Source: an uncultured Gammaproteobacteria bacterium
GTDB lineage: Bacteria > Pseudomonadota > Gammaproteobacteria > Pseudomonadales > Azotimanducaceae
Assembly (NCBI GenBank): GCA_913051785.1
Contig: CAJXCK010000007.1
Location: forward strand, 1-46,018
Reading direction: 5' to 3'
Length of the DNA stretch: 46,018 bases
In this document: piece after piece, positions 1,479 through 33,797 of the stretch
How positions within the stretch are numbered: the stretch's first letter is position 1
Layout: each line of letters starts with the position of its first letter
The notes under the pieces: model-generated
Told to the model about the DNA's origin: nothing
Seen by the model: the letters and a program-made list of their open reading frames with translations, nothing else
The model's database searches: none
Made by a program: the position numbers and the translations under genes

Positions 1479-1576
1479 ATCGATCCAGTGTAGATCCTCC
1501 GGTACCCGGAGTGAAGTGAGTGGAAAGGGATATGTTAGTCTTGGCATAATCGATTTGCTGAAAGGGGTAACCAAGC

Positions 1577-1981
1577 TTGAGCGTTGATATTTTTGACCCT
1601 TCTATGACCGACGTTGCGTTGGTTTCCGACGAGTTTGAACTTTGGTCCCGGTTAGCCAGTGAGTTCGAGCGAGCGGAGAACCCCAACGAGCTAGATTTTT
1701 CCTCTGAAGATATACTTGGTTGTTCTTCATCGATAGCCAAGCCTGGTTGGGAGAAGTTCACGGAATCGTTGAGCGTCGATGAAGTGATAAGTTTGATTCG
1801 TTTAGCGACACTAGCGGAGATGCGATATGCCTCGATGCAGTGCGGGGCAAAGTCTCCAGTTATTAAATTAGTAAAGATATTGAAGTCGAAATCCGCATTT
1901 TCAGACGAGCTTCAGAAATGGATTAAGTCGGTCACCACGAATCGCTATTTGCCTCATGGGGATTTGATGGACATGTTATAG
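1577..1981 (+). CDS. Conserved-looking hypothetical protein upstream of hisB
   Basis: A 134-residue acidic soluble protein with no signal peptide or membrane segment. I do not recognise a named family. It starts at TTG 1577, supported by a Shine-Dalgarno AAGGGG ending ten bases upstream; ATG 1604 is an in-frame alternative. The C-terminal half (SLSVDEVISLIRLATLAEMR, then GAKSPVI, WIKSVTTNRYLPHGDL) looks like a folded, constrained domain rather than a chance frame. It is divergent from mutY and 80 bases ahead of hisB on the same strand, so it may be transcribed with the his genes. No function is assigned. Confidence 0.7.
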   Translation: MSVDIFDPSMTDVALVSDEFELWSRLASEFERAENPNELDFSSEDILGCSSSIAKPGWEKFTESLSVDEVISLIRLATLAEMRYASMQCGAKSPVIKLVKILKSKSAFSDELQKWIKSVTTNRYLPHGDLMDML

Positions 1982-2061
1982 AAGTGGAACTCGATCCAGA
2001 CTTTTTTGAGTTAGACTAATACTGATTTAAACCAGCTCCAGGGGGGTTAAAAATATCCGAG

Positions 2062-2649
2062 ATGCGAACGGCAACTATTGAACGAGATACGGCCGAGACT
2101 CAAATCAAACTGACTTTGTCTCTCGATGGGTCTGGAGATTGCGATCTATCAACAGGCTTGCCTTTTTTCGAACACATGCTGAGTCAAGTTGCGCGTCATG
2201 GGATGTTTGACCTTAAGATAGATGCAATTGGGGATCTGGAGGTTGATGCTCATCACATGGTAGAAGATGTTGGGATTGTTTTTGGACGTGCACTAAACGA
2301 CTCGGTAGGAGACAAATCTGGTCTCGTTCGATATGGCTCTGCCTACGTTCCGCTAGATGAATCTCTATCCAGGGTAGTTGTCGATCTGTCGGGTAGACCA
2401 GGTCTTTTTTACGATGTCTCCTACACGAGAGCTAGAGTGGGGGATTTCGATTTGGATTTGCTTAGGGAGTTCTTTCAAGGTTTTGTTAATCATGGAATGC
2501 TCACTCTCCATTTGGATAATTTAAAAGGGGAAAACGCACATCATCAGGCAGAGACCCTTTTTAAGGCTTTTGGGAGAGCTTTACGTGTTGCCGTCAGTGA
2601 AGACTCTAGAATGATAGGACGGATTCCCTCCACGAAAGGCAGCCTTTAG
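2062..2649 (+). CDS. hisB: Imidazoleglycerol-phosphate dehydratase HisB
   Basis: The histidine-biosynthesis dehydratase, in the monofunctional 195-residue form without the N-terminal phosphatase domain found in enterobacteria. The manganese-binding His-rich motifs are visible: [22 protein letters not shown] and [19 protein letters not shown]. Start ATG 2062. It is followed after 2 bases by hisA. The glutamine amidotransferase gene hisH, commonly between hisB and hisA in related bacteria, is missing here. Confidence 0.97.
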
Positions 2650-2651
2650 AT

Positions 2652-3401
2652 TTGTTGTTGATTCCAGCTATTGATCTGAAGGACGGTTGTTGCGTTCGTC
2701 TCCTTCAGGGAGATATGAATGCTTCAACAATTTTCTCGGAAGACCCTGTTTCGATGGCGAAACACTGGATTAAAGAAGGGGGAAGAAGACTCCATGTCGT
2801 GGACCTAGACGGAGCATTCGCCGGGCGCCCTAAAAATGAACTCTTAATATCTCAGATTGTTGAGGCGGCTGGAGAGGTTCCGGTTCAAGTGGGTGGTGGA
2901 ATCAGAACCAGGGCTATTGCCGAAGCGTATTTAGATGCGGGGGTTTCCTCTTTGATAATAGGTACAAAGGCGGTAGCTGACATGACGTTCTTCGAGGCCC
3001 TCGTAAAAGATTACCCGGGACGGATTATTTTGGGCTTGGACGCTCGAGGTGAGCAGATAGCGACTGAAGGCTGGGTCACGGATGCCGGGATTTCCATAGC
3101 CCAATACCTTTCTAGGATAAAAAACTGGCCAATACAGGCCATTGTTTATACTGATATTACAAGAGACGGAATGATGAAAGGCATCAACTCTGATTTAACC
3201 AAAAGGGTTGTATCTCTGTCAGGTGTTCCTGTTATCGCATCGGGAGGTGTAAAGTCGATCGACGATTTACGAGTCTTGAAAGAGTCCTTCCGAGACGAGC
3301 CAGAGAATTTGTTTGGTGTCATCTCTGGGAGAGCACTTTATGAGCGTGAACTTTCTGTTACCGAGGGCCAGGCGCTGTTAGACTCGAATAAGACGGCATG
3401 A
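2652..3401 (+). CDS. hisA: ProFAR isomerase HisA
   Basis: 1-(5-phosphoribosyl)-5-[(5-phosphoribosylamino)methylideneamino]imidazole-4-carboxamide isomerase, a TIM barrel of histidine biosynthesis, 249 residues. Motifs in order are LIPAIDLKDG with the first catalytic Asp, HVVDLDGAFAG, QVGGGIRT, LGLDARG with the second catalytic Asp, YTDITRDGMMKG and ASGGVKSIDDL. The first codons are three TTGs in a row (2652, 2655, 2658); no ATG is available, so initiation is at one of these, 2 bases after hisB. hisF, normally next, does not follow: the gene runs head-on into envC after 6 bases. Confidence 0.97.
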   Translation: MLLIPAIDLKDGCCVRLLQGDMNASTIFSEDPVSMAKHWIKEGGRRLHVVDLDGAFAGRPKNELLISQIVEAAGEVPVQVGGGIRTRAIAEAYLDAGVSSLIIGTKAVADMTFFEALVKDYPGRIILGLDARGEQIATEGWVTDAGISIAQYLSRIKNWPIQAIVYTDITRDGMMKGINSDLTKRVVSLSGVPVIASGGVKSIDDLRVLKESFRDEPENLFGVISGRALYERELSVTEGQALLDSNKTA

Positions 3402-3407
3402 TTATTT

Positions 3408-4580
3408 TTAGTCTGCGAACCAGCCGGATAGATCAATCGGTAAGCCACCTTTTCTGATTTCGAAGTAGATTCCGTAAGTAGATCGTCCAGCGGTACTGCC
3501 AGCAATAGCTATAACCTCTCCCGATTCTACTCGTTCGAAGGGCTGCCTCAAGAGTTGATCCGTGTTGGCATATAACGAAAGATATCCTCCCCCATGATCT
3601 ACTAGGATCATTAATCCATAGCCCCGAAGCCAATCGGAAAAAACTACCGTGCCATCGTAAATGCTTCTGACCTCGGCATCTTTGGCGCCATGAACGAACA
3701 GTCCTTTGGAGAACAAATCGTTTTGAAAAGATATCGGAAGTCTTTTGGGAGGACCAGGGATTTGGAATATGGGTTGATCAAGAGCCCCTTTTGCTTTGTC
3801 GAAGCCTTGTTCCTTAGAGCCGCTGGCTAGGCTGTCTAGCCTTTTTATGAGATCCACTAATCTCTCTTGGTCAGCGAGTAGATTTTCTCTCTTGGTAATC
3901 TCTGATGATCGCTGTTCTTTTAAAGCATTAATCGATTGTTCGCGTTTGTCATAAAGTGTCTCTAATTTGCGTCTTTCCTCGCTCAAGATTTTAGCGTTGT
4001 CTTGCAGAACTTTTTTTTGTTCAGTTAAGAGAGCTTCTTTTTCTTTTAGGTCATTTAGGGCCAGCTTATATTTCTCTCTGAGGCTTATTAGATGTTTCAT
4101 AAAATATTTTTGATATTCGATTAGAGAAGAAAAATCCTCTAGGGACTCTGATTTCAGCAATATTTGGAGAAGGCTTGGTGACTGCACTTTTTGCATGGTC
4201 CTCAGAAGTTGGACCAATTTCAGTTTGTTCTCTTCTGCCGAGTTCTTTTGCATTTCGATAGATCTAGAGGTTTCTACAATGGAGTCTTTTAGACTATCTT
4301 TTCTCTTATCTAGATCATCGATAGCAGAATTAGTCTCATTGACCGAATAGCTCAATTGCCTTAAATCCTCTTCTAATTTAGATTCGTTAGCTCTCGCAGA
4401 AGTGAGCCACGATTCGAGGATTATCAGTTTCTGATTCACCTCATCGAGCTCGATTTTCAGTTTTTCGTTATCTGACGCCACACAAGGATGAAAAAAAAGG
4501 ATCCCGGCAATGAGAATGGGAAAAGATAGTATTTTTCTTCTTTTTTTGAAGTAAAGTTCTTCGCCTCTTATAGTTTGCAC
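3408..4580 (-). CDS. envC: Murein hydrolase activator EnvC (degenerate M23 domain)
   Basis: A periplasmic coiled-coil protein that activates cell-separation amidases. After a basic N-terminus and hydrophobic segment (about residues 18-34, likely cleavage after CVAS) comes a long Lys/Glu-rich coiled coil (about 40-250). A C-terminal LytM/M23 domain follows with GYGLMILVDHGGGYLSLYAN and YGIYFEIRKGG. The metal-binding HxH is replaced (LYA, IYF), as in E. coli EnvC, so it should be a non-catalytic activator. The frame starts with GTG 4580; no ATG lies before the signal segment. It is convergent with hisA and divergent from the rhodanese gene. Confidence 0.9.
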   Translation of the reverse strand: MQTIRGEELYFKKRRKILSFPILIAGILFFHPCVASDNEKLKIELDEVNQKLIILESWLTSARANESKLEEDLRQLSYSVNETNSAIDDLDKRKDSLKDSIVETSRSIEMQKNSAEENKLKLVQLLRTMQKVQSPSLLQILLKSESLEDFSSLIEYQKYFMKHLISLREKYKLALNDLKEKEALLTEQKKVLQDNAKILSEERRKLETLYDKREQSINALKEQRSSEITKRENLLADQERLVDLIKRLDSLASGSKEQGFDKAKGALDQPIFQIPGPPKRLPISFQNDLFSKGLFVHGAKDAEVRSIYDGTVVFSDWLRGYGLMILVDHGGGYLSLYANTDQLLRQPFERVESGEVIAIAGSTAGRSTYGIYFEIRKGGLPIDLSGWFAD

Positions 4581-6133: not shown

Positions 6134-7546
6134 TTAAGGCTCTTCTCCATTATCTTTGGAGAGACCAATCTCTTGAAGCTTTCTCGTTAAGGTGTTTCTA
6201 CCCCATCCCAGAAGTTGAGCGGCGTCCTTTTTTCTCCCTTTGGTCTTACGAAGGGCTGCTTCTATAATTACCTTCTCAAATTTGGGCATTGCGATCTCAA
6301 GCAAAGGTTTCGAGTTAGTTTTCTCTAGCATTTCGTTTGCCCAAAGGCTGAGATTAGATTCCCAGCTATCTCCTTGGGAGTTGCTGATAGTTTTAATAAG
6401 GTCTTTAGGTAGATCTTCCACGAGAATAATTGTGGAGCTCGACATTACGTGAAGCCATTGGCACAGATTTTCTAGTTGTCGGACATTGCCCGGCCAGGGG
6501 AGGTTGCATAAATAGACTTCAGTCGATTTGTCCAGTATTTTTCTTTCTTCCTCCGACTCTTCTGCGAGTTTTTTTAGGAAGTGTGCGGCTAGTAGAGGAA
6601 TATCCTCTCTTCTCTCCGATAAAGAAGGCACATTTATCCGAATAACGTTGAGTCTGTGAAAGAGGTCTTCTCGAAATTTTCCTTGTCTGACCAAAAGCTC
6701 AAGATCTTGATGAGTTGCAGCAAGTATTCTGACATTGGTGTTTACACTTTCCCGGCCGCCAACTCTGTAGAAACTGTTATCCGCTATAACCCTTAACAAA
6801 CGAGTTTGTGCCGAAATTGGCATGTCACCTATTTCATCTAGGAACAAAGTCCCTCGATTGGCTTGTTCGAAGCGACCCACTCTAGCGCTGGTGGCCCCAG
6901 TAAATGATCCCTTTTCATGGCCAAAGAGCTCGCTTTCGATGAGCTCCTTTGGTATCGCGGCTACGTTCAAAGCAACGAAAACTTCATTTTTCCTAGGACC
7001 GTGTGTGTGCAGAGCTCTAGCTACCAATTCTTTGCCTGAACCAGACTCTCCATTAATCAAAACCGTAAAACTAGAGGAGGATAGCCTGCCTATGGCCTTG
7101 AATACTTCCTGCATAGCTGGAGCTGAGCCCAAAATTTCGCTGGAAGGAGTAATTTGATTAGAGATCTCTGGATCTGACTCCGATCTGCTGCTAATCGCCC
7201 TTTGAACAACATTGACCACTTCATCAATATCGAACGGTTTCGCCAGGTACTCGTAAGCTCCTAGTTCAAAACTATTTACAGCGCTGTCGAGATCAGAATG
7301 TGCGGTCATGATTATCACTGGTATCTGAGGAAACTCAGCTTGTATTTTCTGGAGAAAATCTAGCCCGCTCGAACCAGGCATTCTGATGTCGCTCAATACG
7401 GTGAGTGGTAGTTCATTTGGGAAAAGGTGCATCGCCTCATCGGCGCTATTAAATGCTTTGATGGGTATACCCGCTTGACCAAGAGCCTTGTCTAAAACCC
7501 ATCGTATTGAGTCGTCATCGTCAATTACCCAAACGGTTTTTTTCAT
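6134..7546 (-). CDS. glnG: Nitrogen regulation response regulator NtrC (sigma-54 activator)
   Basis: A 470-residue activator with three domains. The receiver has phosphoacceptor D53 in LSDIRMPG and the conserved Lys in YLAKPFD. The AAA+ domain has Walker A GESGSGKE (about 166-173) and Walker B TLFLDEIGD. The C-terminal Fis-type helix-turn-helix is KKDAAQLLGWGRNTLTRKL. The sigma-54-contact loop reads GSFTGA (213-218) instead of the commoner GAFTGA. Its start overlaps the end of ntrB by 4 bases (ATGA), showing translational coupling. The partner is NtrB, and the expected target locus is the glutamine synthetase gene upstream. Confidence 0.97.
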   Translation of the reverse strand: MKKTVWVIDDDDSIRWVLDKALGQAGIPIKAFNSADEAMHLFPNELPLTVLSDIRMPGSSGLDFLQKIQAEFPQIPVIIMTAHSDLDSAVNSFELGAYEYLAKPFDIDEVVNVVQRAISSRSESDPEISNQITPSSEILGSAPAMQEVFKAIGRLSSSSFTVLINGESGSGKELVARALHTHGPRKNEVFVALNVAAIPKELIESELFGHEKGSFTGATSARVGRFEQANRGTLFLDEIGDMPISAQTRLLRVIADNSFYRVGGRESVNTNVRILAATHQDLELLVRQGKFREDLFHRLNVIRINVPSLSERREDIPLLAAHFLKKLAEESEEERKILDKSTEVYLCNLPWPGNVRQLENLCQWLHVMSSSTIILVEDLPKDLIKTISNSQGDSWESNLSLWANEMLEKTNSKPLLEIAMPKFEKVIIEAALRKTKGRKKDAAQLLGWGRNTLTRKLQEIGLSKDNGEEP

Positions 7547-8661
7547 CGCGATTTTTCTCTAGGTAATTTGTCCCCAGCCATCAGCAACGGAAGGTTGATG
7601 GAAAAAGTGGTAGCTCCGAACTCGCTTTTTACGTTAAGAGAGCCTTTATGCTGACTGATTATAGATTGCGCCACTGCGAGGCCGATGCCGGAACCGCTCG
7701 ATTTGGTTGTTACCATAGGATAGAAGATTCTTTGAAGATCTCTCTTCATAATTCCTGGGCCGTTATCAGATATTTCGACTCGCAACACCCCTCGGTGTCT
7801 GACGTCCCCAATCGTGAACTGACCTACAAATCTTGATTTGAATTTGATCCTGGGAGCGTCAACGTTGATTAACGCCTCACATGCATTTTTGGCGATATTT
7901 AAGATAGCTTGTATCAGTTGATCTTGATCGCCATTTATCTCTGGCAGGCTAGGATCGTAGTCTCGCTCCCAGCATAATCTGCTGTCGAATTCTGAATTAA
8001 GCAAGCTAATAGTTTTCTCACATACTTCAGTTATGTTGACATCTTCAATTCGCAAGGCTTTGCTCGGACCGAGCATTCTGTCCACGAGGTTTCTGAGCCG
8101 ATCAACCTCCGAAATAATTATTTCTGTATGATCGGCAAGATCCGATTCATGCGGCAGCGCTTTTTGCATGAGTTGAGCAGCCCCTCTTATGCCTCCCAAT
8201 GGATTTTTTATTTCGTGCGCCATCCCTCTGATTAAGATCTGATTAGTTTGATTTCTGTCGAAATCAGTTTTCTCTTGGGCAATATTGCTGAACCTGCCGA
8301 CGGGTTTTATCTCGAGGACTAAAGTTTTTGGCAAATTTCCTAGGTTCGCTGTCATATCTACCAGTTCGCTTTGGGAGTCAGGGATCTTGAGTTCTATCTC
8401 ACGAGCGGTGAAAGGTTGCTCGTTCTGGATAGCAAGCTTTAGATTTTGTTTTACCTCTTCTGGATAGATCGCTAACTGCTCCAGCCTTTTTCCTGCTGCT
8501 TGCGAGAACGAGCAATTGAAAAGGTTTTGCGCAGCGGTATTCATCAAAGCTACACTGAGCTCATTGTCCAGAATGACTACAGCGGTACTCAACTGATCTA
8601 GAATATGACTGGCTGAGCGAGGTTGCCGGCTCCGGGCAGCTAAGTTTGCGACTTTGTTCAT
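7543..8661 (-). CDS. glnL: Nitrogen regulation sensor histidine kinase NtrB
   Basis: A cytosolic 372-residue kinase without membrane helices. An N-terminal PAS domain (about 17-120) precedes the HisKA motif RGMAHEIKNPLGGIRGAAQL with phosphorylatable H149. The HATPase region has N box IAKNACEAL, DNGPG and a late GSGIGLAVAQ. It phosphorylates NtrC when nitrogen is scarce and is normally controlled by PII proteins, none of which are encoded here. It is the first gene of the ntrB-ntrC-trmL run, 157 bases after the glutamine synthetase stop. Start ATG 8661. Confidence 0.96.
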   Translation of the reverse strand: MNKVANLAARSRQPRSASHILDQLSTAVVILDNELSVALMNTAAQNLFNCSFSQAAGKRLEQLAIYPEEVKQNLKLAIQNEQPFTAREIELKIPDSQSELVDMTANLGNLPKTLVLEIKPVGRFSNIAQEKTDFDRNQTNQILIRGMAHEIKNPLGGIRGAAQLMQKALPHESDLADHTEIIISEVDRLRNLVDRMLGPSKALRIEDVNITEVCEKTISLLNSEFDSRLCWERDYDPSLPEINGDQDQLIQAILNIAKNACEALINVDAPRIKFKSRFVGQFTIGDVRHRGVLRVEISDNGPGIMKRDLQRIFYPMVTTKSSGSGIGLAVAQSIISQHKGSLNVKSEFGATTFSINLPLLMAGDKLPREKSR

Positions 8662-8744
8662 TTAAATCAGACTTCTTTCATCGTTAGCGACAGTCTTCTC
8701 TCTACCCGCAGCCTGTAGGGCTATCAGCGACGGTTTTTTAAGGA

Positions 8745-8810
8745 GGCACGGGCACACTTACCAGAAGAACACCACTTCTATATTTCAAGAAGTAGCGCTC
8801 TCGCCGTGCC
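8745..8810. repeat. Inverted repeat with nested hairpin between glnA and ntrB
   Basis: GGCACGG (8745-8751) and CCGTGCC (8804-8810) are perfect inverted arms. Between them lies a second inverted pair, ACTTCT and AGAAGT, around an 8-base loop. On the minus strand the outer arm is followed by A-rich, not T-rich, sequence, so it does not look like an intrinsic terminator for glnA. It could be an RNA structure in the ntrBC leader or a paired protein-binding site. Confidence 0.5.
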
Positions 8811-8811
8811 A
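8797..8811 (-). promoter_or_regulatory. Weak sigma-54-like promoter match ahead of ntrBC
   Basis: On the minus strand the sequence TGGCACGGCGAGAGC has the -24 element TGGCAC, a 5-base spacer and the invariant GC of the -12 element; the TT preceding that GC is replaced by GA. The GG and GC pairs are at the correct distance. It lies 136 bases upstream of the ntrB start and overlaps the outer arm of the inverted repeat. It would allow NtrC autoactivation, but one imperfect match may be chance. Confidence 0.3.
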
Positions 8812-8818
8812 GCTAGTG

Positions 8819-9829
8819 CTAAGCTAGGCTCTCTTTTGTTGTTTTGATAATCGCGGCGGCAACCTTATAAGGGTCCGCATTCGATGCTGGCCTCCTGTCC
8901 TCTAATCGACCCTTCCATCCGTCTTCTACAGTTCCCACCGGTATCCGGATGGACGCGCCTCTATCAGACACGCCAAAACTAAACTCAGTAATTGATTGTG
9001 TCTCGTGCTCACCTGTTAAGCGTTTATCATTATCTGCGCCATATACAGAGATATGACGCTCAATGTTTTTCCCGAAATGTTCGCAGATTTTTGTAAAGTT
9101 GGCCTCTTCGCCAGACTCCCTCATCAGGCCGTTAGAGAAATTTGCATGCATCCCGGATCCATTCCAGTCCAGCGCGCCGAATGGTTTTGGATGCCAGTTG
9201 ATCGCGTAGCCATATTTCTCGCCCGTTCTCTCCAGGAGATAACGAGCCAACCATGTTTGGTCACCGGCGTCGGCGGCGCCTTTCGCAAATACCTGATATT
9301 CCCATTGTCCGGCAGCCACCTCTCCATTGATGCCTTCGACGTTGATCCCAGCTTCTAGGCAAAGATCGAGGTGCTCGTCAACACAATCTCTGCCAAAAGC
9401 ATTTGATGCGCCGACCGAGCAATAATACGGTCCCTGTGGCCCTGGATAACCGTTTTGGGGGAATCCTGGTGGTAATTGCGTATCGGTGTCCCACAAGAAA
9501 TACTCCTGTTCGAAGCCGAACCAGAAGTCCGAGTCGTCGTCATCAATCGTAGCCCTTCCATTGGTGAGGTGCGGTGTGCCATCGGCGTTGAGGACTTCGG
9601 TCATTACCAGATAGGCATTTTGTCGATCTGGGTCGGGAATGATAGCAACAGGCTTGAGCAAGCAGTCTGAGGAGCTGCCATCTGCTTGTTGCGTAGAGCT
9701 GCCATCGAACGACCACATCGGGCATTCGTCGAGTGTACCGCCGAAATTGTCTCTGATTTGAGTTTTGCTCCTGAGGCTTTGAGTGGGCGAGTATCCATCA
9801 AGCCATATATATTCTAATTTTGATTTCAT
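8819..9829 (-). CDS. Glutamine synthetase, type II (eukaryotic-like GSII)
   Basis: ATP-dependent synthesis of glutamine from glutamate and ammonium. At 336 residues it is far shorter than the roughly 470-residue GSI (glnA) normally found next to ntrBC. The motifs are GSII-type: YIWLDGYSPTQSLRSKT, WSFDGSSTQQADGSSSD, FGFEQEYFLWD, PYYCSVGA, INGEVAAGQWEYQV, DWNGSGMHANFS, RLTGEHETQSITEFSFGVSD and GASIRIP. The C-terminal adenylylation Tyr region of GSI is absent, so GlnE-type control is not expected. A strong AAGGAG precedes ATG 9829. It occupies the ancestral glnA position ahead of ntrB-ntrC. Rhizobial GlnII is the best-known bacterial relative by length. Confidence 0.93.
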   Translation of the reverse strand: MKSKLEYIWLDGYSPTQSLRSKTQIRDNFGGTLDECPMWSFDGSSTQQADGSSSDCLLKPVAIIPDPDRQNAYLVMTEVLNADGTPHLTNGRATIDDDDSDFWFGFEQEYFLWDTDTQLPPGFPQNGYPGPQGPYYCSVGASNAFGRDCVDEHLDLCLEAGINVEGINGEVAAGQWEYQVFAKGAADAGDQTWLARYLLERTGEKYGYAINWHPKPFGALDWNGSGMHANFSNGLMRESGEEANFTKICEHFGKNIERHISVYGADNDKRLTGEHETQSITEFSFGVSDRGASIRIPVGTVEDGWKGRLEDRRPASNADPYKVAAAIIKTTKESLA

Positions 9830-10222
9830 ATGTCCTTCTCCTTTTTCATAAAATTCTTTATCGCCTCTTATCGGCTAAACGCCAATTCAAATGACTCCGT
9901 CTTCCCCTGGCCCCTCGTTGAATATTCAATATTGGGGTCTCACTCGGTGTTTGATTAAAGCGCCTACCTCAGTATCTACCATTTTACGCACTAATAAAAT
10001 GCAAAATCCTAAAAAATAGAAAATGATTTTGAAAGCTAAGATAAAACGCCCCAAATATGTGCGCCTTTTATCCTGCTGATATCTTCTATGGCTAGACTCT
10101 ATATTTTTTTATCTAATAGGCAGTGAAAGAAATCTTTGGACCAGTGATTGGTTTCAAGCGAATGGACCTTGACCGCTGCACTGTTATCTAGAGAATGCGT
10201 CTCGTAGCAGCAAGATGAATTT
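9830..10222. other. Intergenic region between divergent glutamine synthetase and typA
   Basis: A 393-base region holding the promoters of two divergent genes and no convincing ORF. Near the glutamine synthetase side there is a perfect 12-base palindrome TTGAATATTCAA (9918-9929) flanked by CCCC and GGGG. A good Shine-Dalgarno AAGGAG precedes the glutamine synthetase start. I looked for a sigma-54 promoter (GG-N10-GC with a TGGCAC-like element) on the minus strand and found none that fits. The middle part is A/T-rich. A TTGACC near 10169 could be a -35 for typA but has no good -10. Confidence 0.6.
9918..9929. promoter_or_regulatory. Palindrome upstream of glutamine synthetase, candidate operator
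   Basis: TTGAATATTCAA is a perfect 12-base palindrome. It is embedded in a larger near-symmetrical block with CCCC on the left and GGGG on the right, 89 bases upstream of the glutamine synthetase start. The symmetry suits a dimeric repressor or a hairpin in the mRNA leader. It does not resemble the NtrC consensus GCACCA-N5-TGGTGC. Confidence 0.35.
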
Positions 10223-12034
10223 ATGGGAAATACTTTGACAATTATCGATATCAGAAATATAGCCATTGTGGCGCACGTCGACCACGGGAAGACCACACTC
10301 GTAGATTGTCTCTTATCCCAAACTGGGGCGTTGGAGGGAGATCTGCAACGGGCTATGGACAGCAATGACCTCGAGAGAGAGCGAGGCATTACGATACTTT
10401 CAAAAAATACGGGTATTGAGCATAACGGAGTCAGAATTAATATCGTAGATACACCTGGCCACGCGGATTTCGGCGGGGAGGTCGAGCGAATACTATCAAT
10501 GGTAGACGCTGTTTTGCTGGTTGTGGACGCGGTGGAGGGGCCAATGCCTCAAACGCGTTTCGTGACGAGCAAAGCTTTCGAATACGGACTTAAACCGCTG
10601 GTGGTACTGAATAAAATTGATAGGGACGGAATTCGGATAGACAGTGTGATTGAAGAGGTCTTTGATCTATTTGACGACCTGGGTGCGACTGATGACCAGT
10701 TAGATTTTGACGTGGTTTTTTGTTCCGCTATAGAGGGTACCGCTGGTTTGGATATCGAGCATATAACTTCAAATATGGATCCTCTCTTAGATAAAATTAT
10801 AGAAAACGTAAGCTCCCCAAACGTGGATTTGGAAGCGCCGTTTCAAATGCAAATTAGTTCTTTAGATTATTCTGAATATGAGGGTGTTATCGGGCTTGGT
10901 CTAATCAAACGAGGTACTCTAGAAAAGGGAAAGCCTATCACTCTTATCACAAGAGGAGGCGACAAACGGGGCGGGCGAATCGCAAATCTTTATCTCAATA
11001 GGGGGTTGGAGCGATTCAGAGTGGAAAGCGCGCATGCTGGAGATATAGTTTGTATTACTGGCATTGAGGGGATAAATATCTCCGACACGCTTTGTGATGT
11101 TACTGCCGTTGAGGCTTTGCCAGCCCTAAACGTCGATGAACCAACGTTAACAATGATGTTCTGTGTGAATGACTCGCCCTATGCCGGAAAAGACGGAAAA
11201 TACCTTACGAGCAGACAGATTAGAGAGCGTCTTTTTACGGAGTCGCTTCATAATGTGGCGCTAAGTGTCGCCGAAACAGAAGATCCAGATCGCTATGAGG
11301 TCTCCGGGCGCGGTGAGCTGCATTTGTCTGTTCTAATTGAAACAATGCGACGAGAAGGATACGAGCTCCTCGTTTCTCGACCGAAGGCAATAGAAAGAGA
11401 AGTAGAAGGTGTCAGGCAGGAGCCATTTGAGAATGTTGTCCTAGATATAGGCATCGATCACCAGGGCAAGGTGATAGAGTCATTAACAGAACGCCGCGGT
11501 GAGTTGCTGGAGATAGAAGTAGGGCAAGGTGATCGGGTGAGATTGACCTTCAAAGTTTCTAGTAGAGGGCTCATGGGTTTCAGAAGTTCTTTTCTTTCTC
11601 TTACATCGGGCGAAGGCCTAATGTCTTTTGCTGGTGCTGGCTTTGGCCCGAGGATCAAAGAAGATCTGGGCTCAAGACAAAATGGAGTGTTGATATCTAA
11701 CACAAATGCTAAGGCAGTTGGTTATGCCTTATTCAATCTTCAGGCTCGAGGCAGATTGTTTGTAGAGCCGGGAGATCTTATTTATGAGGGGATGGTCGTT
11801 GGGCTTCACAGTCGGTCAAACGATTTGACCGTAAATCCAGCGAAAGAGAAAAAATTAACGAACATAAGGGCTTCAGGGTCCGATGAGGCAATAGATCTCA
11901 ACGCGCCTGTAAAAATGTCATTGGAGCAGTCCCTTGAATTTATTGACGAGGATGAATTTGTCGAGGTAACTCCTTCAGCGGTTAGAGTTCGTAAAAAGCT
12001 GTTAAAGGAACATCAAAGAAAAAGGGATACTTGA
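10223..12034 (+). CDS. typA: Ribosome-associated GTPase TypA/BipA
   Basis: A translational GTPase of the EF-G/LepA superfamily needed for ribosome assembly and stress or cold adaptation, 603 residues as usual. The G domain has [12 protein letters not shown] (G1), RGITILSKN (G2), [14 protein letters not shown] (G3) and LNKIDR (G4). EF-Tu-like, EF-G III/V-like and the TypA-specific C-terminal domains follow ([25 protein letters not shown]). Start ATG 10223. It is divergent from the glutamine synthetase gene and convergent with tatC after 4 bases. Confidence 0.97.
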
Positions 12035-27706: not shown

Positions 27707-29170
27707 CTATGGAAGCTCTGAGTTGCCCATTATAAAAATGTCAATCTCCCGCGCAGCCTGGCGGCCTTCATTTATAGCCCTCACCACTAAGGACTGCCCC
27801 CTTCTACAATCGCCAGCTGCGAAGACTCCGTTGATATTAGTCTTGTAGCAGCCATATTCGGCCCGATAGTTTGATCTTTCATCGTAGTCAAGCTCAAGTC
27901 TGTCGCTGACAATGTGCTCAGGTCCGAGAAAACCCATAGCCAGAAAAACGAGATCTGCTGGCCATTCTTTTTCTGATCCAGGGACTTCCTTTATTTTGCC
28001 GGATTCCATTACGACATCGATCGTTCGAACCGCTCGCAAATTTCCATCGTTTGTCCCCTCAAAGTTCAGCGATGATATTGAGAAGCGGCGAGGATCGGTT
28101 CCGTCCCTGTAGCTTGCCTCTTCATGGCCATAGTCGGTGCGGAAAATTTTCGGCCAAGTCGGCCAAGGATTATTTTCGGCTCTCTCGCTGGGAGGTTGGG
28201 GGAATAATTCAAAATTTACCAACGAGCGGCAGCCGTGGCGCAAGGAGGTACCAATGCAATCGGTGCCGGTATCGCCCCCGCCAATAACGATTACATCTTT
28301 ATCTTTTGCTGATATGAAGTTTTTATCTTCGTGTCCAGAATCAAGGAGGCTTTTGGTGTTTTGTGTAAGAAAATCCATTGCAAAATGGATTCCTTTTAAA
28401 TCTCGACCCAATATCGGCAGGTCTCGGGGGACTGTTGCGCCAGTGGCAAGCAGCACCGCGTCGAAGCCAGTTTTCAGCAGTTTCACATCTTGGGAACCAT
28501 CTTCACCATCACCAATATGAGAATTTGTTTCAAAGGAGATACCAGCTTTTTTCATGAGGTCTAGTCGGCGACCTACTACCTCTTCTTTGGATAGCTTCAT
28601 GTTGGGGATGCCATACATTAGCAGTCCTCCGATGCGGTCAGAGCGTTCAAATACCGTGATCGTGTGCCCTGCCTTATTCAGTTGCTCCGCCGCTGCTAGC
28701 CCCGTTGGGCCTGACCCTACGATTGCGATTTTTTTTCCTGTTCTTGATAGTGGGGTTTTTGGCTGAACCCAACCTTCCTCGAATCCGCGATCAATAATAG
28801 CCATCTCGATGTTCTTGATCGTCACTGCTGGGTCGGTAATGCCAAGCACGCAGGCTCCTTCGCAAGGTGCTGGGCAGACCCTGCCTGTGAACTCTGGAAA
28901 ATTGTTGGTTTCTTCTAATCTTACTAACGCGTCGTGCCATTGATCGTTGTAAATCAAATCATTCCATTCTGGGATTAGATTGTGTATCGGGCAGCCTTCC
29001 TCTGATTGACAGAAAGGAACCCCGCAATTCATACACCTTGCGCCTTGCGTCGAAAGTCGCTGTGTATCATGACCAACGTAAATTTCGTTGAAGTCGAGTA
29101 ATCTCTCTTCCGGCGGGCGATAAGGGGCCGCTTCTCTTGGAAATTCTATGAAGCCTGTCGCCTTACCCAT
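27707..29170 (-). CDS. gltD: Glutamate synthase small subunit GltD
   Basis: NADPH-oxidising FAD/Fe-S subunit of GOGAT, 487 residues. N-terminal [4Fe-4S] cysteines are C46, C49, C54 and C60 and C99, C103, C107 ([14 protein letters not shown]). FAD site [22 protein letters not shown] site [14 protein letters not shown]-terminal [16 protein letters not shown]. The opening [12 protein letters not shown] and the CPAPCEGAC form are unlike the E. coli/Pseudomonas type (CPQDRLCEGSC) and recall GltD of cyanobacteria, planctomycetes and many other phyla. It lies 40 bases after gltB. Confidence 0.95.
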
Positions 29171-29210: not shown

Positions 29211-32200
29211 TCAGGCGGCGCTTTTCCGATGAGCGGCTTTGGCCTGTAGCGCTCTCTTATAGTCGCGAGGCATGACTTTTATAAAGCTCTCTTTTTCTTC
29301 ATCCCAGTTTTCTAAGATCTCAGTTGCTCTAGTGGAGCCCGTCTTTGATGCGTGCATTTGGATAAGATCTTTTAACTCCATCTCGCTCTCTTCAGAGTCG
29401 ACTTTTTCTAGGTCTACCATTTCCAGGTTGCAATTCATCTCGAAGTTATTCTTTTGATCCCAAATATAAGCTATGCCGCCGCTCATTCCAGCGGCGAAGT
29501 TTCTTCCCGTTTCTCCCAAGACGACCACGCGTCCTCCGGTCATGTACTCACATCCATGATCTCCGACTCCCTCAACCACAGCGCTGGCACCACTATTTCT
29601 AACACAGAAGCGCTCAGCAGCGATTCCCCTGAAAAAGGCCTGTCCCGATGTGGCGCCATAAAGCGCCACATTACCTACCACAATATTTTCCTCTGCTAGG
29701 AACGTGCTCTCCGCAGGGGGAAAGACAATGACGCGGCCGCCTGATAGGCCCTTGCCGGTATAGTCATTGGCATCGCCCTCAACGGTCAACTCGATACCTT
29801 TGGCGAGCCAACAACCGAAGCTTTGTCCTGCACTCCCGCTGAACTTGAACTGAATCGTCTCATCCGGGAGCATCTCCGGACCAACTTGTTTAATGATTTC
29901 GTTAGAGAGCATGGCGCCGACAACTCGATTGGTATTGATGATTGGTAACTCGGCGCGGACTTTTTCTCCCTTTTTCAGCGCTGGTAATGCCAGCTTTATA
30001 AGCTCGTTATCCAAAGCCTTCTCTAATTCGTGGTCTTGTTCGTGTATTTGATACGAGCCTAAGAATTTCCTTGGTTCTTTCGCTTTCGTCAGCAATGGTG
30101 ATAGGTCGAGGCCCTTTGCTTTCCAATGATTCACGGCGGGTTTAACGTTTAATAGCTCGACTGCTCCGATCATCTCATTGATTGTCCGAATTCCTAATTT
30201 GGACATTATTTCTCGGAGTTCTGAAGCGACCATGAATAAATAGTTGACTACATGTTCGGGACTGCCAGTGAACTTCTTGCGAAGCTCGGGGTCTTGGGTT
30301 GCGATTCCGACAGGACAGGTATTGAGGTGACATTTGCGCATCATGATGCACCCCATCGCAATCAGGGGGGCTGTGGCAAATCCAAACTCCTCTGCCCCAA
30401 GTATCGCGGCTATCGCTACGTCCCTGCCCGTCTTTATTTGCCCGTCCGTCTGCAGTACCACACGGGATCGAAGATTGTTCATAACGAGAGTTTGATGGGT
30501 CTCCGCAATGCCTAGTTCCCACGGCAGCCCGGCATGCTTTATTGACGTCAGAGGCGAGGCCCCTGTTCCGCCAGAGTCCCCAGCGATGACGATGTGGTCC
30601 GCTCTAGCCTTCGTGACACCGGCTGCAACCGTACCAACTCCAACTTCAGCACCTAACTTCACGCTAATGCGTGCACTTCGATTCGCGTTTTTTAGGTCGT
30701 GAATCAGCTGAGCCATATCCTCAATGGAATAGATATCGTGATGCGGCGGCGGGCTGATTAAACCGACGCCCGGCGTCGAATGGCGTAAGCTTGCAATATA
30801 GTCGTCGACCTTTCCGCCGGGGAGCTCGCCGCCTTCCCCAGGCTTTGCTCCTTGGATGATTTTAATTTGTAGTTCGTCGGCGTTGGTCAAATAATTGATG
30901 GTAACGCCGAATCTACCACTCGCGACTTGCTTTATAGCTGATCTTTTCGAGTCGCCATTTGAGAGTGGAATGAATCGTTTGGCGTCCTCTCCCCCCTCTC
31001 CCGTATTTGATTTTCCGCCAAGTCTGTTCATGGCTATAGCAAGCGACTCATGAGCCTCTGCACTGATTGAACCAAAGCTCATTGCCCCCGTGGCGAAACG
31101 CTTGACAATATCCTTTTCAGCCTCGACTTCCTCCAGAGGGACCGGGTTTTCTGAGAAACTAAAGTCTAGAAGACCGCGTAGCGTTGACCTCTTAGTATTT
31201 TCTTCGTTAATTTGTTTTGCGAACGTTTCGTAACTTTCTTGACTGTTTGTGCGAGCAGCAACCTGAAGAGAAGCAACAGATTTTGGCTCCCACATGTGAG
31301 TATCGCCATTCCTTCTCCAATGGAAGTCTCCATGGTTGGGCAAAACGCCGATCATCTCGTTTCCTCTTTGCGGGAAGCCCTGCAAGTGGCGACGAGTCAT
31401 TTCCTCAGCCAACGCATGCAGAGTCAGTCCTTCTACTCTGCTGGCCGTTCCTTTGAACGCTAGTTCTATAACCTCTGAGCTCAAACCAACGGCCTCGAAT
31501 ATTTGTGCGCCCTTATAAGAGTGCAAGGTGGATATTCCCATCTTCGCCATGACCTTGAGCATCCCTTTTCCAACGGCTTTTTTATATCTCGTAACAACGT
31601 CTTCTCGCGAGGTAATCTCTGGTATGCTGCCGAATTCTCCAGCGATCCGGCTCTGTTCGAGGGTTTCTAACGCCAGATATGGATTAATTGCGTCGGCACC
31701 GAAACCAACGAGCAGGCAAAAATGATGAACTTCCCTTGCCTCGCCAGTCTCCAATACCAGTCCAATTTGGTTCCGGAGATGCTTGCTTACCAAATGGTGA
31801 TGAACACTTCCGATGGCAAAAAGAGAACTAATCGCTGCGCTATTTGCCCCTACGTTCCTATCAGACAGAACCGCCAGGCTATATCCTTCTTCAATTGCGC
31901 TCTCTACTTGTTGATTAATTCGATCCAGCGCGCTGATTAGGTTATTACTTGCATTTGATTTCTCGTCGACGTCAAAAGTGATGTCGATCACCTTGGACTT
32001 CCAGCCTCGGAAATCCAGACTGATTAGCCCCGCCGTTTCTTCGTTATCTAGGAGGGGATGCATGATTTTCAGTCGATTTGAGTGTTCGGGTTTGGGCTCA
32101 AGAAAATTTCCCTCAGGCCCGATGTAACACTCCAACGACATGATTACCTCCTCCCGAATTGAATCGATTGGAGGGTTGGTAACTTGAGCGAAGCGCTGTT

Positions 32201-33797
32201 TGAAGTAGTCATAAAGCATTCGCGGCTTATCGGACATGATAGCCAGCGCTGCATCGTTACCCATAGAACCGAGTGGATCTCTCAGTTCCTTGACCATCGG
32301 GTTTAACATAAACTCCATGGTCTCCTGCGTATACCCGAAAGACTGCTGTAAGGCGGTAAGATCGTGCTCAAGTGTCGAAGTTGAGGTGCTAGGAATTTCA
32401 GATAGCTCTAGTCGGTTTTTTGCGAGCCATGTTTCGTAGGGCTCCTTGCTCACAATCCTCTCTTTTAGCTCATGGTCGGAGATCATTCGCCCTTGATCAA
32501 AATCGATCAAGAAGATCCGCCCGGGTTGAAGGCGTCCCTTACGCAGTATGTTTTCAGCCGGTTCTCTAACTACGCCAACCTCAGAGGCCATGATGCACCT
32601 GTCGTCCTTCGTGATATAAAACCGGGATGGCCTGAGCCCATTTCTATCAAGAATAGCCCCGATGCAGCGCCCATCTGAGAAGGCCATTGAAGCGGGTCCA
32701 TCCCAAGGTTCAATGAGGCAGGAGTGATATTCGTAGAACGCTCTTTTTTGCTCCGACATGTTTTGGTGTTGTTGCCAAGCTTCCGGCACCATCATCATCA
32801 AAGCTTCAGGGATTGATCTGCCGTTCATGATCAGGAATTCAAGAACGTTGTCGAAGTTCCCTGAGTCGGAGCAGTTCGGTTCAATAATTGGGAATAGTTT
32901 CTTTAGGTTGTCGCCAAAAATATTTGATTTTGTGTTGCCTTCTCTGGCATTCATCGCATTGACGTTACCCAGGAGCGTGTTGATCTCACCATTGTGGCTC
33001 ATAAAACGGCTGGGCTGTGCTCGATCCCAGGAGGGAAAGGTATTGGTACTGAACCTCGAGTGTACCATTGCGAGATGAGTTTCGTAGTCCGGGTCATTTA
33101 GATCATCAAAAAATTGAAAAACCTGTTCAGGTGTAAGCATGCCCTTGTAAACGAGAAGTTGGGAAGAAAGAGAGCAGACATAAAACAGAGCTCCTTCTAA
33201 CAGTCCTTTTTCTGCGCGAATTTTGTGTGTCGCAGACTTCCGAACCAGATAAAGTTGTCTGTCCAGAGATTGGCTATCCATCGCCTCTGCTGCTTTGATG
33301 AAAAGTTGTTCAATTTTTGGCATCGCCGATAGTGCGGTTTCGCCAACATCTGCCTTATGAACGCTGACTGGCAGCTCTCTCCAACCTATCAATTCAAGAT
33401 TGCATGGCTCTAGTTCGGATTCGATTAGTCTTTTGCAGAGGGCACGCTCAGCCTCGTCATTGGGTAGAAACACGTTGCCCACGCCATACTGCCCTGCGTC
33501 AGGGAGTTCAAAGCCCATAAGGTTTCTGCATTCTTTTCGCAGAAGTTTATCAGGTAGACCGGTCATGATTCCCGCACCGTCGCCGGTATTCTTCTCAAAT
33601 CCGACACCACCACGATGATCCATACAGCAGTTCATGGCATATGCGTCATCCATAATTTTTCTGCTGGGAATGCCTTTGATGTGGCAAACGAATCCCACGC
33701 CGCAGCTATCCTTTTCGAATGAGGGGTCATATAGCCCTTGCTTAGGCGGTAGACCCAGTGATCGGCCCAGTTTTTTTTGCCTTGAGTCTTTCTTCAA
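29211..33797 (-). CDS. gltB: Glutamate synthase large subunit GltB
   Basis: Ferredoxin/NADPH-type GOGAT alpha subunit, 1528 residues, making two glutamates from glutamine and 2-oxoglutarate. A 31-residue leader precedes the class II amidotransferase nucleophile C32 in [15 protein letters not shown], which needs propeptide removal. The order is glutaminase (to about 430), central domain, FMN/2-oxoglutarate synthase domain with the [3Fe-4S] motif C-x5-C-x4-C near 1149 ([13 protein letters not shown]), and the GXGXG beta-helix. CGVGF and [17 protein letters not shown] differ from the gamma-type CGFGLIAH/TGDGCG form. Start is TTG 33797, with no strong ribosome site; the frame stays open upstream. 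Confidence 0.95.

Follow-up and report, generated by a model that had tools for sequence, protein, structure and literature searches.

Glutamine synthetase is a central enzyme and is normally very tightly controlled, the textbook case being the type I enzyme (GSI) with its adenylylation by GlnE. In the enterobacterial glnA-ntrB-ntrC (glnALG) operon, the glutamine synthetase gene is followed by ntrB and then ntrC. The type II class (GSII) is known mainly from plants and animals. The stretch of DNA analysed here (the window; 46,018 nucleotides from an uncultured gammaproteobacterium of the family Azotimanducaceae) carries a GSII gene beside ntrB-ntrC, which raises the question of how an enzyme of another class came to occupy the glnA slot and of how it is controlled there.

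The gene in question (8819..9829, minus strand) begins with an ATG and encodes 336 amino acids that include the motifs WSFDGSSTQ, DWNGSGMHANFS and RLTGEHET as well as both glutamine synthetase domains (PF03951 and PF00120). When the protein was compared with solved structures, the best 16 matches scored 279-316 bits and the next match 48.9 bits; we take these 16 to be GSII enzymes (for example 3fky, 4bax, 4is4 and 2d3a), and the motifs conserved in the alignment presumably have catalytic roles. The protein scored 377.6 bits on the NCBIfam GlnII model versus 57.1 bits on the GSI model TIGR00653 (cut-off 429), to which it aligned at model positions 154-371 of 462 only. Its similarity is to GSII over the full length, not to GSI or GSIII, and it has the size and architecture of GSII (about 330-380 amino acids, a beta-Grasp and a catalytic domain, and no C-terminal adenylylation region of the GSI type). 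The score nevertheless lies below the cut-off of 500 bits for the GlnII equivalog (NF041605), which no match in the 97 genomes that we searched exceeded, and a motif check of the sequence did not find a DLP motif. Model scores, domains and structure matches together rule out a short GSI paralogue. A preliminary description of the sequence had called the gene a 336-residue GSII beside ntrB-ntrC, and the reading frame, motifs, structure matches and model scores bear this out; a tree placement with GSI or GSIII, which that description had named as counter-evidence, did not occur.

Downstream on the same strand, after a gap (8662..8818) and with no DUF4124-type gene in the window by a rough sequence pattern, lie ntrB (7543..8661, minus strand), encoding the sensor kinase NRII with a HEIKNP box (305 bits, cut-off 240), and ntrC (6134..7546, minus strand), encoding the sigma-54 activator NRI with the receiver motif LSDIRMP (666 bits, cut-off 558.6). 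The sigma-54 contact loop of this NtrC reads GSFTGA, not GAFTGA; the same variant occurs in 9 of 67 NtrC proteins compared, the window's included (the loop could not be read in 8), and is therefore no peculiarity of the window. The upstream neighbour of GSII, across an intergenic region at 9830..10222, is typA (10223..12034, plus strand). The window also holds profile matches for the large and small subunits of glutamate synthase, the GS-GOGAT partner (gltB, 29211..33797, and gltD, 27707..29170, both on the minus strand), mutY (399-1574) and, at 1-55, a minus-strand tRNA gene that is cut by the window edge.

Does the same genome encode another glutamine synthetase? A PF00120 search of its assembly (93% complete, in 134 contigs) returned two genes, GSII and a gene of 454 amino acids on contig C60. 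No GSI was found by this search and no GlnE by a search of the contigs, which was the genome check that the preliminary description had proposed. The second gene is what might support a reading of GSII as an auxiliary nitrogen-stress enzyme, as in rhizobia, with the main activity coming from elsewhere. Its scores on glutamine synthetase models are 190-198 bits overall against cut-offs of 429-470 (198 on the type III model, cut-off 470, and 196 on the type I model, cut-off 429), it scores 164 bits on the gamma-glutamylputrescine synthetase model (cut-off 650), and it adjoins a class I amidotransferase gene, an arrangement that we take to be that of the puu gene order of gamma-glutamylpolyamine synthetases. 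The low scores and this neighbour rule out a hidden GSI, and the gene probably encodes a gamma-glutamylpolyamine synthetase-like (PuuA-like) enzyme. Moreover, a 94% complete genome of the same genus (G287) shows no match resembling the C60 gene; its single weak match to the GSI model (2e-12) is of a strength typical of GSII, and GSII is therefore the only gene of the family seen there. An auxiliary role for GSII is thus very improbable in our judgement, and the window gene is the only one found in its genome that resembles a biosynthetic glutamine synthetase. The sensing cascade is kept in the same genome, with one PII protein, GlnD (792 bits) and RpoN.

To see how far this gene content extends, we searched 97 genomes, 40 of them from the window's own genus and 21 from other genera of the family (one per genus). 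GSI over the cut-off was found in none of the 40 genus genomes, several of which are 95-99% complete, and GlnE was likewise found in none; GSII above 350 bits was present in 37, and the three genomes without it are 58-81% complete and also have no ntrB match. It could be argued that GSI is merely missing through faults of assembly or binning, given that the window's own genome is 93% complete in 134 contigs and that other members of the genus go down to 58%. Against this stand the consistent result across 40 genomes, including the most complete ones, and the fact that in 35 loci the sequence covers the slot itself and shows GSII there, so that an artefact of this kind is scarcely credible. The preliminary description had also named a GSI elsewhere, carrying most of the activity, as a finding that would speak against it; neither the window's genome nor its 40-genome genus provided one.

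In the rest of the family, GSI was present in 15 of 21 genomes, and the presence of GlnE follows that of GSI. GlnE occurred in 46 of 49 relatives with GSI versus 1 of 48 without; a further set of 40 genomes, selected around GSII loci, gave 10 of 14 with GSI versus 1 of 26 without. These counts of GSI take in fragments in G335, G354 and G369, those of GlnE leave out a 24-bit match in G319 as GlnD-like and include a partial GlnE in G321, and a Fisher p value for the association ignores kinship and is not relied on. The exceptions are GSI without GlnE in G325, G326, G365, G024, G152, G051 and G371, and GlnE without a detected GSI in G363 and G048 (88% complete). In two of the former, G325 and G326, the GSI (at loci L168 and L154) is altered around the adenylylation loop with the tyrosine still in place, and these loop changes suggest that loss of GSI can be preceded by decay of the adenylylation arm. 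A separate case is G337, an order relative that is 99% complete, which keeps ntrBC with no glutamine synthetase gene before ntrB (L232, 7325-10904); profile searches there found no GSI over the cut-off, no GSII match and no GlnE, and its glutamine synthetase is perhaps a GSIII.

We then compared the slot itself, between typA and ntrB-ntrC, reading 37 loci from the genus (the window, L174-L193 and L194-L209). In 35 of the 37, ntrB came after GSII on the same strand at a distance of 0.2 to 1.8 kb (L192 and L200 run off the contig), and typA lay on the other side of GSII in 36 (L196 runs off the contig). Of the 15 sister-genus genomes that have GSI, 13 carry ntrB downstream of it in the same orientation, with typA before GSI in 11 of these 13 loci. 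Where typA was not seen, one locus (L166) ends 2 kb upstream and the other (L234, from G315) has no typA within 6 kb; where GSI was not linked to ntrB, G325 carries GSI elsewhere and G316 has the two genes on separate contigs. The ancestral order is therefore not universal, as G315 and G325 illustrate. By the rough pattern, 11 of 35 GSII loci of the genus, 9 of 18 GSI loci and none of 8 other slot loci have a DUF4124-type gene between the glutamine synthetase gene and ntrB; Pfam, applied to one GSII and one GSI locus, returned DUF4124 for both. The pattern shows no such gene in the window and 23 other genus loci. In the loci of both kinds that have it, both flanks are thus common and the glutamine synthetase gene differs. 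That GSII has the neighbours and the orientation of the sister genera's GSI, with no GSI found and GlnE gone, sustains the proposal of the preliminary description that the enzyme was replaced in place.

This is not the only way in which GSII is found in the family. Six other genera have GSII without GSI (G317, G319, G323, G330, G332 and G333), of which G333 alone carries it in the slot; ntrB is preceded by no glutamine synthetase gene in G317, G319, G323 and G332, and the contig of G330 breaks off. With GSII elsewhere or unplaceable in five of these six, replacement in place is only one route. Four further genera (G321, G324, G326 and G328) have both classes, and in G326 GSI and GSII are divergent neighbours between typA and ntrB. 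Examination of 80 loci on named public contigs showed slot GSII also in records titled SAR92, Porticoccaceae and OM182, among others.

The distribution of slot GSII on trees points to recurrence. In a tree of 129 GSII sequences, 47 of the 49 slot genes fall into one group of 54 rows (SH-aLRT 87), together with 3 probable slot genes and 4 others. The two outside it are L021 and L093. The latter is a deep-branching GSII gene in a gammaproteobacterial genome of 1.2 Mb (G176) and encodes a protein 58% identical to the window's; it stands just before a gene for an NtrB-like kinase (region 1483-3662 of the locus); profile searches of G176 found no GSI over the cut-off and no GlnE. Its slot GSII apparently has a separate source and would be an independent slot case. 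On a host tree of TypA and NtrC, built from the 58 of 86 candidate loci with enough of both proteins (L185, the window's nearest relative, is not among them), slot GSII marks the window's genus (28 rows, support 100), an OM182-like group (8 rows, 100), SAR92/Porticoccaceae (97) and L021. It is also found in G333, which branches from within GSI-bearing genera (99). This distribution amounts to 5 changes of slot-GSII state, of which at least 3 are forced by strong branches, on a tree that rests on two proteins and a quick method, gives the window a long branch (1.11) and may include reversals among the changes. Because slot GSII is scattered in this way, the change from GSI to GSII probably recurred, although the same scatter could reflect a switch that reverted in places or a gene that moved between slots. 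GSII proteins 73-80% identical to the window's also occur in records titled Planctomycetes, Acidobacteria, Bacteroidetes and archaea. Those titled Marine Group II, Euryarchaeota and Poseidoniaceae archaea (L070, L078 and L080) are 73-77% identical; an account of 2010 noted that there was no report of GSII in Archaea (PMC2978018).

The most serious competing account holds that GSI and GSII were already neighbours at the locus in an ancestor and that lineages lost one or the other, with little recent transfer. Such neighbours exist: GSII stands beside GSI, beside ntrB, in L006 (Halieaceae), L031 (Oceanicoccus), L033 (the same gene as L154, from G326) and L035, and these cases are separated from each other on both trees. 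Ocean metagenome data also contain adjacent type I-type II pairs (PMC1821046), and a sigma-54 site is missing from GSI at 4 of 5 loci that have GSII next to it or close by, as would be expected of a fading gene. Yet the two arrangements differ in orientation: GSII in the pairs at ntrB is directed away from GSI, and slot GSII faces ntrB, so deletion of GSI from such a pair would not by itself yield the slot arrangement; for the same reason we rejected a stepwise path through divergent pairs. The nesting of G333 among GSI-bearing genera and the high identity of GSII across phyla also count against differential loss, as does the weak rejection of a single clade for the genus GSII (AU p 0.031, for a clade that was named after the tree had been seen and that included L013). 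Taken together, we consider differential loss unlikely, if a good deal less so than the auxiliary role, and replacement in place highly likely.

How is the resident enzyme controlled? We scored upstream regions for -24/-12 sigma-54 elements with weights set by hand and single-base shuffles, taking 13 or more as a site, in 36 genus loci (L196, with 44 bases upstream, was left out). A site was present upstream of GSII in 34 of the 36; these elements begin with TGGCA, hold TTGC and lie 58-207 bases before the start. Controls gave 0/36 for typA, 0/32 for ntrC, 0/27 each for TatC and TatB, 0/26 for TrmL, 0/24 for the rhodanese, 1/25 for HisE, 1/24 for SecB, 1/11 for UbiB and 30/740 for random stretches, and regions upstream of ntrB were often sigma-54-like too (9/35). 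NtrC-like boxes matching at least 11 of 14 positions occurred in 27 of the 36 GSII upstream regions. At GSI loci without GSII nearby, all 15 that were scored had a site; where GSII lies beside or near GSI, GSI had one in L006 only, and GSII had one in L006, L154 and L035 and a weaker one in L031 and L155.

The two genus loci without an element upstream of GSII are the window and L185, whose GSII is 96% identical to the window's. The intergenic region between typA and GSII has no recognisable sigma-54 element, and a plain pattern search allowing two mismatches found nothing between 6735 and 17553. A degenerate NtrC-like box, TGCATTTTATTAGTGCG (9987..10003, minus strand), matches 9 of 14 positions, which is not above chance (p 0.48), and is identical in L185. 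A sigma-70 promoter search of 8650-10240 gave 3 matches versus 2.5 expected, none on the GSII strand, and a search of 8600-10300 for RNA regulators gave only a chance-level human lncRNA match (17.4 bits versus 60). Elsewhere in the same genome, the region before the ammonium transporter and PII genes (amtB-glnK) carries TGGCACATAATCTGCA, with a sigma-54 score of 13.5, and an NtrC-like box matching 11 of 14. NtrC and sigma-54 thus seem still to be used, though not visibly for GSII. The lineage of the window and L185 is also accelerated, with a G+C content of 45-46% versus 47-56% in 11 sibling loci; its TypA is 65-68% identical to those of the siblings, as against 83-85% among the siblings themselves, and its GSII remains at 84-87%. 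Decay specific to ntrB and ntrC was rejected as a description of this lineage, since most neighbouring genes other than GSII are also less alike.

The preliminary description had further held that the regulatory locus was left intact and that control would run through transcription. That view fits the relatives, with their sigma-54 sites, and the window's genome does keep the sensing cascade and the amtB-glnK site, but the window's GSII lacks the element itself, and for this genome transcriptional control of GSII is unproven and perhaps wrong.

We therefore favour, with considerable confidence, a model in which a GSII gene took the place of glnA between typA and ntrB-ntrC in an ancestor of the genus, GSI and GlnE being lost and GlnD, PII, NtrB, NtrC and RpoN kept. 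That confidence attaches to the replacement; gene content, gene order, motif counts and tree positions are observations, from which we infer the direction and order of events, expression and activity. GSII would now supply the cell's glutamine, with GOGAT completing the cycle. In most members it would stand behind NtrC and sigma-54 sites, like GSI in the sister genera, and in most slot-type relatives PII-NtrBC would raise its transcription in nitrogen shortage. Glutamine synthetase, once controlled by transcription and adenylylation together, would thereby be left with transcription alone, there being no adenylylation switch without GlnE. A similar replacement seems to have occurred repeatedly among these Gammaproteobacteria. 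In the two-genome lineage of the window, GSII may be expressed independently of NtrC and sigma-54, with NtrC still serving amtB-glnK. Judging from the upstream regions, we hold tentatively, at somewhat less than even chances, that the sole glutamine synthetase of this lineage has escaped both adenylylation and the NtrC/sigma-54 promoter, and that GlnD-PII-NtrBC-RpoN is retained for ammonium uptake. If so, nitrogen control would act on uptake alone, and glutamine synthetase would be constitutive or under another regulator.

Compared with the glnALG operon, the locus has the same gene order and, in most relatives, a sigma-54 promoter, but the enzyme class differs and no GlnE was found. Several elements of this picture are in print. 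Sinorhizobium meliloti glnII is under NtrC/RpoN control and regulated mainly at the transcriptional level, with GSI and GlnE kept alongside (PMC5127829). The likeness is a GSII enzyme under NtrC/RpoN control in a proteobacterium, as the sites in the window's relatives suggest; here, unlike in S. meliloti, neither GSI nor GlnE was found, GSII occupies the glnA slot at ntrBC, and the GlnII cut-off is missed. The Global Ocean Sampling survey, in its treatment of glutamine synthetase, described abundant type II enzymes on bacterial scaffolds and 19 adjacent type I-type II pairs whose meaning it left unexplained, and gave a histidine kinase and an A/G-specific adenine glycosylase as neighbours of the type II genes (PMC1821046); the window, too, carries a histidine kinase gene (ntrB) and mutY. 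That treatment contains no whole-genome test, ntrBC locus comparison, GlnE loss or replacement model, which are offered here. A bacterial clade of the class, GSIIB, has gammaproteobacterial members; the work on it, in the sections that concern this clade, deals with transfer to green plants and not with locus context or loss of GSI (Ghoshroy 2010, PMC2978018). Gammaproteobacterial GSII, ocean type II enzymes with adjacent pairs, and rhizobial glnII control are thus known; we found no description in the open-access literature of GSII in the glnA slot or of replacement in place with loss of GlnE, which is what is new here.

The proposed history offers a testable reading of two puzzles of 2007, namely the abundance of type II glutamine synthetase genes in ocean bacteria and the fact that type I and type II genes sometimes lie next to each other (PMC1821046). 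More broadly, repeated in-place switching of the enzyme class, with the adenylylation arm lost and the sensing cascade kept, would mean that a regulatory network can survive the exchange of its main output.
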